Source: Gammaproteobacteria bacterium
Lineage (GTDB): Bacteria > Pseudomonadota > Gammaproteobacteria > UBA4575
Direction of reading: 5' to 3'
DNA length: 34,212 nucleotides
Assembly (NCBI GenBank): GCA_029253965.1
Contig: JAQWYM010000003.1
Location: 1 to 34,212 of the forward strand
Numbering within the stretch: the first letter of the stretch is position 1; each line of letters opens with the position of its first letter. The translations under genes were made by a program, and so were the position numbers. Of this stretch, positions 13,854-19,658 are shown in pieces. The notes under the pieces are model-generated. The model was not told where the DNA came from. It saw only the letters and a program-made list of their open reading frames with translations, and did not search any database.

Positions 13854-15144
13854 GTTAGCGCAGGCGCTATTCCTCTCACTGGTGCTCAGCAGCGCAGGTT
13901 ATGCTGAACTCCTCATCGACACGATTGCTGCAGTTGTTGAAGACTCAGTCATCACTGAGAATGAACTTATCCAGCGCATGGCTGTGATTCGTGCACAAGC
14001 CAGTGATCAAGCACAGTTCCCAAGGGATTCTGTTTTCCTTCAGCAAGTCCTAAATCGGATGATCACGGAGCGCTTACAAATCACCTATGGCAGCCGCCGT
14101 GGCATCGAGGTTGATGAATTACAGTTGGATCGAGCGATGCAAGAACTGGCAGAACGCAATCGCATGACCTTGGAAGAGTTTCGTCAAACCCTGCTTCAGA
14201 AAAAAATAGATTACATCTCTTTCCGTGAACAGGTACGCACCGAAATGTTAGTCGGCCAAGTTCGCCGTCGTGCCGTCGAGAGTAAAATTAAAATTTCAGA
14301 TCAAGAAATAAATGAATTACTGGAACAACAAAAAAACAGTCTTAATCTCGACGTGGAATACCGTATTGCACATATCCTCGTGCAGCTACCGACAGACCCA
14401 ACCCCTGAACAACTACAAGAGGCAAAGGCGAAGGTAGAACAGGTCGAACAGTTAGCACAACAGGGTGACAGCTTTACTCAGCTTGCTATCCGTTACTCAC
14501 AGTCACAGGATGCACTAGAAGGCGGTGACCTCGGTTGGCGTAACCGTGATCAAATTCCAGCTATATTTGCCGATCACCTTGATGGCCTGACAGCAGGTGA
14601 TCTGAGTAAGGTCGTCCGCAGCCCCAATGGCTTACACTTATTTAAAGTGATTGATACACGCGGCAATAAAACCGTACTGATTGAACAGATGCGCAGCCGT
14701 CACATCCTCCTCAGAGTTAACGCTGTGCGCAGTGATGATGATGCCTTACGTGATCTTACTTCCTTGCGCAGCCGTATCGTCAATGGTGCAGACTTCTCAG
14801 AACTAGCGCGTGCAAACTCTGATGACCCTGGCACCGCAGTGAATGGTGGCACCTTGGATTGGGTGGCACCTAGTGCCTTAGCCCCATCTTTCCGCGACAC
14901 CGCGGCCCGCTTAACGATTGGCCAAATCAGTGAGCCCTTCAAGAGCCGCTTCGGCTGGCACATCCTCGAAGTCTTAGAGCGTCGTCAACATGACAACTCA
15001 GAAGATGCCCGCCGTGAAAAGGCGCGTGGCACGCTACGTCAACGTAAGATCGAAGAAGAAACAGATCTGTGGATACGTCAATTAGTTGATGAAAGTTATG
15101 TCGATAATCGTTTATTGGCTAACGACACCAGCACGGCTCAATAA
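13825..15144 (+). CDS. surA: Periplasmic chaperone/peptidyl-prolyl isomerase SurA
   Basis: SurA escorts unfolded outer-membrane proteins, including LptD, across the periplasm. I start it at ATG 13825 rather than the in-frame GTG at 13795. The ATG opens a clean signal peptide (MKIATPTLIKLAQ... ending SAGYA before ELLIDTIAAVV) and is preceded by GAGG, though only two bases away. The 439-residue protein has an N-terminal SurA domain, parvulin domain 1 (RIAHILVQLP to LHLFKVIDTRG), parvulin domain 2 (RSRHILLRV to GWHILEVLERR) and a C-terminal helix. With this start it overlaps lptD by 29 bases, coupling a chaperone to its main client. Confidence 0.95.
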   Translation: MKIATPTLIKLAQALFLSLVLSSAGYAELLIDTIAAVVEDSVITENELIQRMAVIRAQASDQAQFPRDSVFLQQVLNRMITERLQITYGSRRGIEVDELQLDRAMQELAERNRMTLEEFRQTLLQKKIDYISFREQVRTEMLVGQVRRRAVESKIKISDQEINELLEQQKNSLNLDVEYRIAHILVQLPTDPTPEQLQEAKAKVEQVEQLAQQGDSFTQLAIRYSQSQDALEGGDLGWRNRDQIPAIFADHLDGLTAGDLSKVVRSPNGLHLFKVIDTRGNKTVLIEQMRSRHILLRVNAVRSDDDALRDLTSLRSRIVNGADFSELARANSDDPGTAVNGGTLDWVAPSALAPSFRDTAARLTIGQISEPFKSRFGWHILEVLERRQHDNSEDARREKARGTLRQRKIEEETDLWIRQLVDESYVDNRLLANDTSTAQ

Positions 15145-15150
15145 GCTGCT

Positions 15151-16113
15151 GTGCAGACCTATGCACCACTAGCAATCACTGCTGGAGAACCTGCCGGTAT
15201 CGGTCTCGATATCATTCTCCAGTCTATGCCTGAGCTCAAAGATTGCATTATTATTACCGATGAATCTGCACTTAGAGAACGTGCACAGCAACTCGGTATA
15301 GCGCTTGAAATAACCCAGACTGCAGCGCGCTATGATCATCAGCTACGGGTTAAACCAATAGCAACAAATAATGCTGTCTTTGCGGGCACCTTAGACTCAA
15401 ACAATGCCGAGCATGTTCTCGCCTGTCTGGATGAATCTCTGCGTGGCACTCTCGCGGGTGATTACAGTGCGATAGTGACAGCGCCCTTGCACAAGGGCGT
15501 CATTAACGATGCGGGTGTTGCCTTCACCGGACATACTGAATACTTTGCGAAACACACCAACAGTGAAGTTGTCATGCTCTTAGTTGCAGGTCAGGTGCGT
15601 GTCGCCTTAGCAACAACGCACCTACCTTTAGCAGCGGTGGCTGAGGCGATTACAAGCGACCTCATTATCCGCAAGATCACTATACTTGAGCATGACTTAC
15701 GCACTAAATTTGCACTAGAAAGACCACATATTGCAGTCTGTGGCTTAAACCCACATGCCGGTGAACAGGGGCATTTAGGCCGTGAGGAAATTGAGATTAT
15801 CGAGCCGGCCTTAGAGCATTTACGCCAACAAGGCATTAATGTCAGTGGCCCACATCCAGCAGATACTATTTTTTGTCAGCATCACTTAGAGCAGACTGAT
15901 GCCGTCTTTGCGATGTACCATGATCAGGGCTTGCCGGTACTGAAACATATTGGTTTTGGTGATGCCGTGAATACCACACTCGGCCTGCCAATTATCCGCA
16001 CCTCAGTTGATCATGGAACTGCCCTCGATCTAGCCGCTAGCGGTAAAGCTAATGCCGGAAGTTTACTCGCAGCATTAACCCTAGCCCGACATCAAGTAAC
16101 GTCCCGTTTATAA
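15151..16113 (+). CDS. pdxA: 4-hydroxythreonine-4-phosphate dehydrogenase PdxA
   Basis: PdxA oxidises 4-phosphohydroxy-L-threonine in the DXP-dependent pyridoxal phosphate pathway. The 320-residue frame begins with GTG six bases after surA and opens directly with the family N-terminus (ITAGEPAGIG). Metal and substrate motifs are all present: TAPLHKG, FTGHTEYFA, GLNPHAGEQGHLGREE, AMYHDQGLPVLK and a C-terminal RTSVDHGTALDLA. The divalent-metal histidines lie in GHTE, PHAGE and YHDQG. It is part of the surA-pdxA-ksgA order common in gammaproteobacteria, but three extra genes separate it from ksgA here. Confidence 0.96.
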   Translation: MQTYAPLAITAGEPAGIGLDIILQSMPELKDCIIITDESALRERAQQLGIALEITQTAARYDHQLRVKPIATNNAVFAGTLDSNNAEHVLACLDESLRGTLAGDYSAIVTAPLHKGVINDAGVAFTGHTEYFAKHTNSEVVMLLVAGQVRVALATTHLPLAAVAEAITSDLIIRKITILEHDLRTKFALERPHIAVCGLNPHAGEQGHLGREEIEIIEPALEHLRQQGINVSGPHPADTIFCQHHLEQTDAVFAMYHDQGLPVLKHIGFGDAVNTTLGLPIIRTSVDHGTALDLAASGKANAGSLLAALTLARHQVTSRL

Positions 16114-16140
16114 ATAATGACAAAGGATCAGAAGAAACCC

Positions 16141-16728
16141 ATGCGTTTCCTACTTAAGACCTCAATCTTAATCAGTGCCTTGCTGTTTAACACAGCATGC
16201 CAGTCTAAATCAGATAATGAACAACAATTTATTGCTCAGAGCAAAGAGCTTATTAAAGCCTTGGCCAGTGATCTTCAACACACTATGAAAACAGCGGTAA
16301 AATCAGGGGGGTTTGAAAAAGCAATTTCAGCCTGCCAGAATCAAGCACCACTGATCAAGCAAAGCCATAACCAAACCTCTGCCTTAGAAATTAAACGCAC
16401 CAGCTTAAAATGGCGCAACCCTAATAATAGTCCTGATGATTGGGAACGACAGGTGCTGCTTGCCTTTGAAGAGCAGAAGCGTGCAGGTGTTGCTATCAGC
16501 AAGCTCAATCATAGTGAAGTAATCGAAACAGATTCAACCTTAGAATATCGTTTCATGAAAGCCATCCCAATTAAATCAGTCTGCCTCAACTGCCATGGTG
16601 ATGAGAGTCAGATAACATCGCCAGTTGCTGCCGCATTAAAGCAACAATACCCTCTTGATAATGCGACACAGTTTAAGGCCGGAGATATTCGCGGTGCCTT
16701 TTCCGTGCGCAAAACAGTGGTGCACTAA
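16141..16728 (+). CDS. Tll0287-like (DUF3365) haem-type protein, probable lipoprotein
   Basis: I place the start at ATG 16141 because it opens an export signal (MRFLLKTSILISALLFNTAC) and AAAGGA/AGAAG lie upstream. The in-frame ATG at 16117 adds eight polar residues and has no ribosome site. The mature protein would begin at Cys20; the lipobox is imperfect (Asn at -3). A single CLNCH c-type haem motif (Cys148, Cys151, His152) lies in SVCLNCHGDE. The preceding region fits the Tll0287-like/DUF3365 domain, including an ACQNQAP segment with Cys65. Proteins with this domain are haem-binding sensors or redox proteins of uncertain role. It is 195 residues long and is followed two bases later by a flavin-barrel gene. 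Confidence 0.82.
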   Translation: MRFLLKTSILISALLFNTACQSKSDNEQQFIAQSKELIKALASDLQHTMKTAVKSGGFEKAISACQNQAPLIKQSHNQTSALEIKRTSLKWRNPNNSPDDWERQVLLAFEEQKRAGVAISKLNHSEVIETDSTLEYRFMKAIPIKSVCLNCHGDESQITSPVAAALKQQYPLDNATQFKAGDIRGAFSVRKTVVH

Positions 16729-16730
16729 TA

Positions 16731-17111
16731 ATGTCTAAGCCCTTACCACAAGAATTTATAGCTGCTTGGGAAAACCGTCAGGCTCTGATGTCTCTCAGTA
16801 CTGTAGACAATAATTCCCAGCCCAACAGCATCTGGTTACTGTGTGCTGAATTAATCGATGAGACACGCATCAGTATTGCTAACAATGCTATGACGAAAAC
16901 TCTACAGAACATCGAGCAAGGTAGTCATGGGGCATTGCTGATTATTGCCCCAGAGCGTGAGTCCTATCAGATCAAAGGTCGTCTTCAACATTTTTCGGAT
17001 GGCCCTTTTTACGATGAAATGAAAACTTGGCTTGACCCTAAATTTCCCGGCAAGGGCGCCGTTAATCTCCACATTGAAGAAATTTATTATGGCGCAGAAA
17101 AAGTTTTTTAA
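16731..17111 (+). CDS. Pyridoxamine 5'-phosphate oxidase-like split-barrel protein
   Basis: This 126-residue protein has the size and pattern of the FMN-binding split-barrel family. A helix leads into a strand ending SLSTVDNNSQPNS, then RISIANNAMTKTLQNIEQ (equivalent to the AxxxxKTxxN flavin-phosphate region), then ALLIIAPERESYQIKGRLQ and a C-terminal strand. Members include true PNP oxidases, haem-degrading proteins and many uncharacterised flavoproteins. The lack of the PdxH C-terminal extension argues against real PdxH activity. It is two bases downstream of a haem-type lipoprotein gene and close to pdxA. The next gene overlaps its end by 23 bases. Confidence 0.8.
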   Translation: MSKPLPQEFIAAWENRQALMSLSTVDNNSQPNSIWLLCAELIDETRISIANNAMTKTLQNIEQGSHGALLIIAPERESYQIKGRLQHFSDGPFYDEMKTWLDPKFPGKGAVNLHIEEIYYGAEKVF

Positions 17112-17610
17112 GTCATTACGAATAGTAGTTGGCATGAGCCTATTACTGCCAAGTACGGTGCTCTTACTGCTGCTCTTTATCAGTAGTACATCAATCGCAG
17201 ACGAGACTATCTCTATCACACTAAACTCAGATAAAGACTTTAAGTTCAGTGAAAAGGATACAACTGTTTTCCATCTGCGGGCATTGGATGACAAGCTGCG
17301 AGAACTGCAAGGTTTAGCACAGACACAATCCTTGGGAGTAGCCAACCTCGGGCAAGTCGAGCTCTTAGCGAGTGGCTCAACAGTCACTGTATTACGTAAT
17401 ATCGCAGCGCAGATTGCGCAGGCTTTAGAGATTAACTTCTATTTAATTGGCGATAGTGAGAGTGATCATGCGCTCGCTCCACATCAGTTATTATTGCTCT
17501 ATAACGAAGATAGCAAGATCACCTTGGCCTTAACAAAAAATACAGATAGTGAACACTATCAACTGATCGCTAGCTATGCTCTCAGCAAGCAGCCAGCCAA
17601 GACCCATTAA
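17089..17610 (+). CDS. Membrane-anchored hypothetical protein
   Basis: I do not recognise this protein. ATG 17089 has GAAGA eight bases upstream and opens a basic N-terminus (MAQKKFFKSLR) followed by a long hydrophobic stretch (about residues 12-38) ending SIADE. This could be a cleaved signal peptide or an anchor. A longer reading from TTG 17032 would lie wholly within the previous gene and would bury the signal, so I reject it. The 173-residue protein has a soluble, mixed alpha/beta-looking remainder with no cysteine and no motif I can name. It overlaps the split-barrel gene by 23 bases and ends 13 bases before ksgA, so it is almost certainly co-transcribed with both. Confidence 0.7.
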   Translation: MAQKKFFKSLRIVVGMSLLLPSTVLLLLLFISSTSIADETISITLNSDKDFKFSEKDTTVFHLRALDDKLRELQGLAQTQSLGVANLGQVELLASGSTVTVLRNIAAQIAQALEINFYLIGDSESDHALAPHQLLLLYNEDSKITLALTKNTDSEHYQLIASYALSKQPAKTH

Positions 17611-17623
17611 GGTCTAATTTATT

Positions 17624-18421
17624 ATGGCTACTCATCGCGCCAAAAAACGTTTTGGCCAAAACTTCTTAGTGGATGACAGTGTCATCCATAGCCTAATCAA
17701 TGCGATTGGCCCGCAGCGTACTGATCGCGTTCTTGAAATCGGCCCTGGCTTAGGGGCTATGACCTTACCGCTGCTAGCCCGTCTTCAACAGTTGGAAGTT
17801 ATTGAGATTGATCGTGATCTGATTGCACGTTGGCAGGCACGCAATTTAGAGCAGCTGATTATTCACCAATGCGATGCCTTGAAATTCGACTTTCGCAATG
17901 ATCTCAGTGCTGACACCAATACCAGACCACGACGCCTGGTGGGTAACCTACCATATAATATTTCTACACCTTTAATATTCCATATCTTGGAGCAGGCTGA
18001 AGCCGTACAAGACATGCACTTCATGCTGCAGAAGGAAGTGGTTGACCGTCTCTGTGCACGCTGTGGTGATCGACAGTACGGGCGCCTAGCTGTCATGGTG
18101 CAAAGTCGCTGTCAGACACAGAAACTATTAGAAATAGCACCTGAGAGTTTTTCGCCTGCACCTAAGGTGACTTCCGCATTTGTGCGTTTAGAGCCATTGT
18201 CTGAACCCATGGTGGCAGATACTATGCAAAGCCTTTTTGCGCAGTTAGTGCAACAGGCATTTGCTCAGCCAAGAAAAACCATTGCAAACAATCTGCGTGA
18301 GCAACTCTCGGCCGACGCCTTAAGGCAGTTAGATATCGACCCTGGTGCACGCCCACAAACTATTTCAATTGAGCAGCTAATTCGCATTACGCAACAGCTA
18401 TCAATGACAATCACTGAATAA
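17624..18421 (+). CDS. ksgA: 16S rRNA dimethyladenosine transferase (A1518/A1519)
   Basis: KsgA (RsmA) dimethylates the two adjacent adenosines in helix 45 of 16S rRNA, a late check on small-subunit assembly. This 265-residue protein begins with the family signature AKKRFGQNFL. It has the SAM-binding motif VLEIGPGLGAMT (about 36-47), an acidic ribose-binding residue in VIEIDRDL, and the catalytic NLPYNISTPL (about 107-116). The C-terminal RNA-binding lobe contains PRKTIANNLR. AAGG lies upstream of the ATG at suitable spacing. It leads the ksgA-apaG-apaH run with short gaps. Confidence 0.97.
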   Translation: MATHRAKKRFGQNFLVDDSVIHSLINAIGPQRTDRVLEIGPGLGAMTLPLLARLQQLEVIEIDRDLIARWQARNLEQLIIHQCDALKFDFRNDLSADTNTRPRRLVGNLPYNISTPLIFHILEQAEAVQDMHFMLQKEVVDRLCARCGDRQYGRLAVMVQSRCQTQKLLEIAPESFSPAPKVTSAFVRLEPLSEPMVADTMQSLFAQLVQQAFAQPRKTIANNLREQLSADALRQLDIDPGARPQTISIEQLIRITQQLSMTITE

Positions 18422-18436
18422 AAAGAGACATCAAGT

Positions 18437-18814
18437 ATGAGTGAACAACACAATATTACAGTCGATGTGACATCGACCCATATCAAAGAGCAGTCTGATG
18501 CTAATGCTGAGCGTTATGTTTTCACCTATACCGTTACCATTCGTAATGAAGGTTTGATGGCAGCCCAATTATTGAGTAGACATTGGATCATCACCAATGC
18601 TGATGGCAAGACACAAGAAGTGCGTGGTGATGGTGTTGTCGGTGAGCAACCCAATCTAAACCCGGGTGACAGTTTTCAATACACCAGTGGTACGATGTTA
18701 GAAACACCGGTGGGTAGCATGCAAGGTAGTTATCAAATGCAGGCCGATGACGGCACCACCTTTGATGCTGAGATCAAACCTTTCACATTATCAGTACCCA
18801 ATGCATTGCACTAA
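18437..18814 (+). CDS. apaG: ApaG (DUF525) protein
   Basis: This 125-residue protein is the full-length ApaG fibronectin-like beta-sandwich. Its family pattern is clear: YVFTYTVTIRNEG near the N-terminal third, LLSRHWIITNADGKTQEVRGDGVVGEQP in the middle (20-residue core RHWIITNADG...GEQP), PGDSFQYTSGT, and GSMQGSYQM towards the end. The molecular role of bacterial ApaG is not settled. Its fixed place between ksgA and apaH suggests a link to nucleotide or ribosome quality control, but that is inference from context only. Confidence 0.96.
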   Translation: MSEQHNITVDVTSTHIKEQSDANAERYVFTYTVTIRNEGLMAAQLLSRHWIITNADGKTQEVRGDGVVGEQPNLNPGDSFQYTSGTMLETPVGSMQGSYQMQADDGTTFDAEIKPFTLSVPNALH

Positions 18815-18839
18815 AACCCTTAAGATCAGCCAATAGATC

Positions 18840-19658
18840 ATGGCTGTCTATGCAATCGGTGATATTCAGGGCTGTCTAGCCTCACTAAAATTGCTGCTTA
18901 AGGAAATACAATTCAACCCACAGCATGACCAAGTTTGGTTTGTCGGTGACCTCGTCAATCGTGGCCCTGAGTCCTTACAAACATTACGCTTTATTCATGC
19001 CCTAGGTGATAGCGCTCGCTGTGTTTTAGGTAATCATGATATCCATTTGATAGCCTGTCATGCTGGTGTTAAAACCTGTAAACCACAAAGCTCTCTTAAT
19101 CAGGTATTGGCAGATGCCGAAGCTGAGAAATGGATTGAATGGTTACGACAGATGCCCTTACTACACCATGACCCACATCTTGATTGGTTAATGGTTCATG
19201 CTGGCCTTCTCCCAGAGTGGGACCTAAGCACTGCCAAGCGCTGTGCGGCTGAGCTTGAAGCACAACTGCGTTCTGATAACTATGCTGAATTTATCGCTAA
19301 CATCTATGGTGATGAGCCTCGACAATGGTCAGAGAACTTAGTTGAAAGTGATCGTTGGCGGCTTAGCATGAATGCTTTCACACGCATTCGAATGTGTGAT
19401 CAGCACGGCGCTCTGAATTTTTCTTACAAGGGCTCACTAGCAGATAGTGATGCACAGCTAAAACCATGGTTTGAGCTGCAGCGTGCGAGTGAAAAACAGC
19501 GTATCGTCTTTGGTCACTGGTCAGCATTAGGTTTAGTTAAACGCGATAATCTTTTAGCGATTGATACCGGTTGCTTATGGGGTAACAAAATGACCGCAGC
19601 ACGCATTGATTGCGAGACACCAGTCATTACCTCAATAGATTGCCCTAGTTATCGCTAA
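18840..19658 (+). CDS. apaH: Symmetrical diadenosine tetraphosphatase ApaH
   Basis: ApaH splits Ap4A symmetrically into two ADP and also removes Np4N caps from RNA in E. coli. The 272-residue protein has the metallophosphatase blocks in order: GDIQGC at 7-12, GDLVNRGP near 36-43, LGNHD near 60-64, VHAGLLPEW, and a late FGHWSALG. These blocks supply the di-metal ligands. It ends the lptD-to-apaH rightward run and converges with folA across a gap of about 42 bases, in which I see no strong terminator hairpin. Confidence 0.97.
   Translation: MAVYAIGDIQGCLASLKLLLKEIQFNPQHDQVWFVGDLVNRGPESLQTLRFIHALGDSARCVLGNHDIHLIACHAGVKTCKPQSSLNQVLADAEAEKWIEWLRQMPLLHHDPHLDWLMVHAGLLPEWDLSTAKRCAAELEAQLRSDNYAEFIANIYGDEPRQWSENLVESDRWRLSMNAFTRIRMCDQHGALNFSYKGSLADSDAQLKPWFELQRASEKQRIVFGHWSALGLVKRDNLLAIDTGCLWGNKMTAARIDCETPVITSIDCPSYR

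Follow-up and report, generated by a model that had tools for sequence, protein, structure and literature searches.

Three genes between pdxA and ksgA in an order of Gammaproteobacteria: a probable stepwise gain into a conserved operon

The window analysed here is the entire contig JAQWYM010000003.1 (34,212 nucleotides) of a gammaproteobacterial genome that is 83% complete and 1.47 Mb in size. Three genes, here numbered 1 to 3, lie between pdxA and ksgA, and the features of this interval are as follows.

15151 to 16113, forward strand: pdxA, upstream flank of the insert (PF04166, E 5.2e-104)
16141 to 16728, forward strand: gene 1, a stand-alone Tll0287-like protein (DUF3365, sCache_haem), predicted to be an exported c-type haem protein (PF11845, E 2.9e-24)
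16333 to 16335, forward strand: Cys65 of gene 1, probably the second axial ligand of the haem; all 18 aligned rows keep it, and in the alignment it falls opposite Cys68 of 5b82_A
16582 to 16596, forward strand: CLNCH, the CxxCH haem-c attachment motif of the gene 1 product, at residues 148-152 when numbering starts at 16141
16731 to 17111, forward strand: gene 2, a 126-residue PNPOx_N split-barrel protein (PF01243, E 5.4e-12)
16896 to 16910, forward strand: K56-T57-x-x-N60 of gene 2, which we take to be a motif of the FMN-phosphate type, with K56, T57 and N60 in 15 of 15 rows
17089 to 17610, forward strand: gene 3, an apparently exported 173-residue protein of an unclassified, order-restricted family, overlapping gene 2 by 23 bases
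17624 to 18421, forward strand: ksgA (rsmA), downstream flank of the insert, its identity read from the open reading frame

The flanking genes in the window run lptD-surA-pdxA-ksgA-apaG-apaH, the same backbone and order as the lptD-surA-pdxA-rsmA-apaG-apaH operon of Escherichia coli K-12; in E. coli, pdxA stands directly beside rsmA (ksgA) with nothing between, whereas the window has three genes there. All three are co-directed, and the successive gaps from pdxA to ksgA measure 27, 2, -23 and 13 bases, which bears out a preliminary description of this DNA as a conserved pdxA-ksgA order split by three genes with gaps of at most 27 bases. The same four values were found in G002, a genome of the same genus as the window. 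Gene 1 has an alternative start at an in-frame ATG at 16117, and a ksgA homologue was present in all ten relatives searched. A scan of positions 15000-18900 for promoters and terminators gave no excess over shuffled sequence (4 versus 6.4 and 3 versus 3.0, respectively), the one weak terminator-like site before ksgA (17600-17615) falling within that shuffle level, so that co-transcription is neither supported nor excluded by these counts.

All three genes look like maintained genes under purifying selection. Comparison of the window with the corresponding G002 locus (L020), leaving out the overlap between genes 2 and 3, gave dN/dS values of 0.091, 0.076 and 0.113 for genes 1, 2 and 3, and 0.054-0.091 for the six flanking genes (lptD, surA, pdxA, ksgA, apaG and apaH), all of these being rough values as dS exceeded 1 throughout. 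The G002 assembly carries the locus twice, on a 3 kb contig (C35, L019) and on a 187 kb contig (C2, L020); the two copies are probably mixed strains in the bin and not a duplication.

Gene 1 matches PF11845 with 86.6 bits, above the gathering cut-off of 24.1, and is matched to the solved structure of Tll0287 (PDB 5b82) at E 6.7e-8 as a single sequence and at 1.4e-16 with an 18-row profile. Residues C148, C151, H152 and G153 are invariant in all 18 aligned rows. The stand-alone proteins of the Tll0287/DUF3365/sCache_haem group share with gene 1 a domain that covers most of the length, the CxxCH motif, the aligned second cysteine, a signal sequence and the absence of other domains; unlike these relatives, gene 1 is encoded in the pdxA-ksgA interval. 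The preliminary description had called the protein a haem lipoprotein, and the haem family part of that name holds, as both the PF11845 match and CLNCH agree with it. The lipoprotein part is unsure, because the window protein fails the lipobox pattern (in the form that we take PROSITE PS51257 to have), with a cysteine near the end of the signal peptide and an Asn at -3, and because both same-genus copies in G002 have no cysteine near the end of the signal peptide and fail it as well. Among the 18 aligned gene 1 rows, the window row included, the pattern is matched by 8.

In the available portion of a 2026 preprint, the Tll0287-like family is reclassified as haem-c Cache domains, a stand-alone sCache_haem member acts as a redox protein and not as an NO sensor, another member that has a signalling domain does hold NO, and the haem of Tll0287 has Cys/His ligation (PMC12889525). 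By our own reading of the residue number, Cys68 of 5b82_A would be the Cys ligand of Tll0287. By family, gene 1 is a c-type haem protein with a probable redox role: it would be exported, its haem would be attached at CLNCH, and the iron would be ligated by His152 and Cys65. As an output domain is missing, it would not be a gas sensor with a signalling output of its own.

Gene 2 scores 46.6 bits against PF01243 (gathering score 28.1), and the same family was matched at E 0.01 in all 15 aligned gene 2 rows, 13 of which come from the order. In profile searches of the PDB, HupZ was the best match (5.9e-13), with 2htd, 3in6, HutZ and FMN-binding protein also matched, and the earlier assignment of gene 2 to the FMN-type split barrels is supported by these matches. 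The small PNPOx_N split barrels (FMN-binding protein 1axj/1flm, presumably from Desulfovibrio, HupZ 5esc, the COG3576 member 2htd, and 3in6) resemble gene 2 in being single domains of about 125 residues and in keeping K-T-x-x-N, which is seen in the FMN-binding protein 3in6; unlike them, gene 2 is in most cases overlapped or directly followed by a gene for an exported protein specific to the order. Compared with HugZ, gene 2 is too short for the C-terminal haem-ligand loop. No histidine is conserved: at most 5 of the 15 rows share one in any alignment column. The invariant K-T-x-x-N together with the lack of a conserved histidine favours FMN binding over a haem-oxygenase use of the HugZ or Pden_1323 type, and gene 2 probably binds FMN. 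No signal peptide is visible in gene 2, and its product would be cytosolic. Assignment as a haem oxygenase of the HugZ/HutZ/Pden_1323 kind was considered and set aside, as the histidine that binds the haem carboxylate (His64 of Pden_1323) has no conserved counterpart in gene 2.

Gene 3 carries what appears, by eye from the alignment, to be a cleavable Sec signal ending SIA-DE, and "exported" seems a better word for the protein than the "membrane-anchored" of the preliminary description. Of the 19 genomes of its family, which make up the whole order in the genome set, 17 have a homologue, and in a sample of 274 genomes of the class only 3 had a match, all of the same family and none of another. 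Eighteen sequences from 17 genomes share 24 invariant columns. No Pfam family was matched by gene 3 and its NCBIfam hits were weak; scans of 18 members against both collections returned only isolated weak hits (best values 0.023 and 0.0015, with no family hit in more than three members), a PDB profile search returned nothing under E 0.18, and no viral relative was picked up by the gene 3 profile. A weak match to BsmA (E 0.067) had hinted at a YdgH/BhsA-like protein, a candidate that was dropped as PF07338 is found in none of the 19 genomes.

Two AlphaFold2 models of gene 3, each built from three sequences, had mean pLDDT values of 56.3 and, for the core, 57.4. With the first, Foldseek gave no match below E 0.5, and the best VIA-align Z was 3.7, to folds other than the hot-dog. 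The core model has a strand-helix-four-strand order and gave a best Foldseek E of 0.034 and a best Z of 7.3 (rmsd 3.3, 89 aligned), with most of the matched rows being hot-dog thioesterases and dehydratases. At this low model confidence, the hot-dog-like arrangement is a hint that we do not count as an assignment, and it may be no more than a common arrangement.

In order to follow these genes through the order, gene contexts were read in 19 of its genomes. The arrangement of the window, pdxA-1-2-3-ksgA, was found in seven (G000, G002, G004, G006, G009, G015 and G012), with G012 counted although its gene 1 is a fragment at a contig end and pdxA is not seen. Five genomes have pdxA-2-3-ksgA with gene 1 elsewhere (G003, G005, G008, G011 and G014), and five have pdxA-3-ksgA and no gene 2 (G007, G010, G013, G016 and G018, which are all five members of genus g6); among these last, a gene 1 match was found only in G007, away from the locus and as a more distant homologue. 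One genome has pdxA-1-ksgA (G017), and in another (G001) the context is not readable, as the contig starts inside ksgA. G017, of genus g3 and 1.6 Mb in size, has gene 1 at L026 1498-2082 between pdxA and ksgA, with genes 2 and 3 missing there. Gene 2 stands directly 5' of gene 3 in all 12 order genomes that have it. Among 36 genomes outside the order, gene 1 was matched in nine and gene 2 in two; G032 has matches to both on separate contigs, and in G054 gene 2, found by profile, is on a different contig from its gene 1.

These arrangements do not fit the proposal, made in the preliminary description, that the three genes are a small redox or haem-handling module. Genes 1 and 3 each occur independently in relatives, an outcome that the preliminary description had itself named as speaking against a module, no contiguous trio was seen away from pdxA among the gene 1, 2 and 3 matches searched, and only the pairing of gene 2 with gene 3 is firm.

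The history of the insert can be read in part from two trees. In the ksgA tree, whose root is unsure as the outgroup is very long, genera g1, g3 and g5, which hold the eight rows with gene 1 at pdxA, are grouped (97/99) apart from g2, g4 and g6. Gene 3 occurs on both sides of this tree, gene 2 on both sides with the exception of g6, and gene 1 at pdxA on the g1, g3 and g5 side only. The gene 1 tree covers 23 of 28 matched places (the tree omits the fragment in G012, the partial sequence in G019, the second place in G043, one of two gene pieces in G052 and the second place in G052), and in it the eight rows from the pdxA locus and five from a dsrE2 locus form one clade (95/89), apart from ten other rows; the G007 homologue falls outside this clade. 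The simplest order of events would be that genes 3 and 2 came first and gene 1 later in one half of the order, with gene 2 lost in g6 and genes 2 and 3 lost in G017.

Gene 2 may have an older history at this site. Relatives below E 1e-39 outside the order were found in four (G020, G121, G197 and G380) of 369 genomes of the class, a set that includes three genomes of the order, and the G020 match is one by construction, as the profile contains one G020 row and one Elusimicrobia row. In G197, which belongs to another family, the order is lptD-surA-pdxA-(648-residue open reading frame)-gene 2-ksgA...apaG-apaH (L151 5934-12448), and gene 2 at pdxA-ksgA would therefore either be older than the order or have travelled with the site into it; G197 is the one genome on which this choice rests, and it does not decide between the two. 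Between its ksgA and apaG, the same locus has small open reading frames, and one of these resembles a nucleotidyltransferase by eye. Neither pdxA nor ksgA was recognised in the short stretches seen around the gene 2 relatives of G020, G121 and G380. Among plasmids, the one gene 2-like sequence was from Desulfosarcina (46.8%, covering 61% of the query), and a search of genome contigs returned three loci, two in one MAG taken as G002 and one in Elusimicrobia.

The genera that carry gene 1 away from pdxA give a lead to its role. In all five genomes of g2 and g4, the gene 1 orthologue adjoins a dsrE2-like gene close to a flavocytochrome c sulfide dehydrogenase (FCSD) gene, and a Pfam check of the G011 proteins found PF13686, PF11845 and PF09242. 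The FCSD family PF09242 is present in all 19 order genomes, that of the window included, and on this basis the order looks sulfide-oxidising. We consider it probable that gene 1 is linked to sulfide oxidation, in which it would carry electrons or buffer redox state in the periplasm and so serve the oxidation of reduced sulfur. This link may not carry over to the genome of the window, as none of the genera that bear the trio has gene 1 close to sulfur genes and no dsrE2 match was found in the three genomes of g1 or in G017. Five genomes of g3 and g5 have a more distant dsrE2, 54-59% identical, and none of the four such loci that were examined has gene 1 as a neighbour. In genus g6 (for example G013), a Tll0287-like protein of a different subtype stands beside dsrE2 (27.6-28.0 bits against the cut-off of 24.1, in two proteins scanned).

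Two further observations were made at such loci. A dsrE2 gene, a Tll0287-like gene and FCSD stand together in three genera, at L112 5276-8959 (G011), L113 4297-6653 (G005) and L097 1393-3582 (G013). Runs of proteins with an extremely high content of Met, Pro, Gly and Asn and with MMNPMMGM repeats are encoded near FCSD or dsrE2 (L112 327-3531, L106 2059-3465 and L102 917-1411), and one such protein has a DUF302 domain.

Taken together, the best explanation, which we think is probably correct, is that the lptD-surA-pdxA-ksgA-apaG-apaH operon gained the three genes of the insert stepwise and within this lineage, and not that they form a dedicated three-part system; gene 1 would be a redox haem protein of the periplasm, with a probable link to sulfide oxidation. 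Gene 3, apparently exported and order-specific, is the constant resident of the interval; gene 2, the small FMN-type split barrel, is tied to it and often overlaps it; and gene 1 has its place beside pdxA in one half of the order only, while two genera of the opposite half have its orthologue beside dsrE2 and near the FCSD gene.

It is possible, though we would not expect it, that genes 2 and 3 function as a pair, a cytosolic flavoprotein and an exported partner that are translationally coupled, with gene 1 as an accidental neighbour. The constant order of the two genes, their overlap of 23 bases in 7 of the 12 genomes (with starts taken as the nearest ATG) and the retention of gene 1 at the G017 locus, where both are missing, all point this way, and a pairing as firm as this could reflect a joint function. 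Gene 3 nevertheless stands without gene 2 in 5 of the 17 genomes that have it, all five of them g6, and profile searches of the fetched stretches around the gene 2 relatives of G197, G121, G020 and G380 found no gene 3.

Less likely by a clear step is a single redox or haem pathway, in which gene 1 would be a periplasmic haem c protein, gene 2, acting like HupZ or Pden_1323, would open the haem c of damaged cytochromes in the cytosol, and gene 3 would be an exported partner. HupZ is the best solved relative of gene 2, and a c-type haem protein by family is encoded two bases upstream, but of the 12 order genomes that have gene 2, 5 lack gene 1 at the locus, the FMN-type K-T-x-x-N is kept in every gene 2 row, and the gene 2 search of the PDB at E up to 10 matched 21 sequences without Pden_1323 (6VNA) being one of them. 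In the available parts of two reports, HupZ and the c-haem oxygenase Pden_1323 form one subgroup that does without the C-terminal His loop of HugZ (PMC9237417; PMC8131568), which is in favour of such a pathway; in the same portion of the second, Pden_1323 keeps the haem-carboxylate residues His64 and Arg92 (PMC8131568), and the scarcity of histidine in the columns of gene 2 speaks against it.

More speculative still, and in our estimate improbable, is the idea that gene 3 is a new exported family fixed in the outer-membrane-biogenesis operon of a single order that apparently oxidises sulfur, and that with the overlapping gene 2, joined in half of the order by a relocated gene 1, it would form a redox relay coupling periplasmic sulfur oxidation to envelope assembly through LptD and SurA.

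The preliminary description had offered a vitamin B6-related role for gene 2, and an enzyme acting with PdxA is the least probable reading of all: a PNPOx_N domain does adjoin pdxA, and gene 2 recurs between pdxA and ksgA in G197, but only this N-terminal domain was found, without the C-terminal PNP_phzG_C domain of PdxH (PF10590), which is encoded away from gene 2 in 19 of 19 order genomes, the NCBIfam pdxH score is 12.5 against a cut-off of 180 bits, and the five g6 genomes keep pdxA with no gene 2 match, so that gene 2 is very unlikely to be the B6 oxidase of these genomes.

For the stand-alone sCache_haem group, which in the available portion of its defining preprint is given only a general redox role (PMC12889525), the dsrE2 and sulfide dehydrogenase neighbourhood in the sister genera is a functional lead. 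Genes 1 and 2 are of known kinds, a haem protein and a small flavin barrel, and gene 3 adds an unclassified family held by 17 of the 19 order genomes. Breaks in synteny such as this one should not be taken for modules before relatives have been checked, and the pdxA-ksgA interval is a clear example of a conserved operon gaining passengers singly, apparently at different times, within one lineage.
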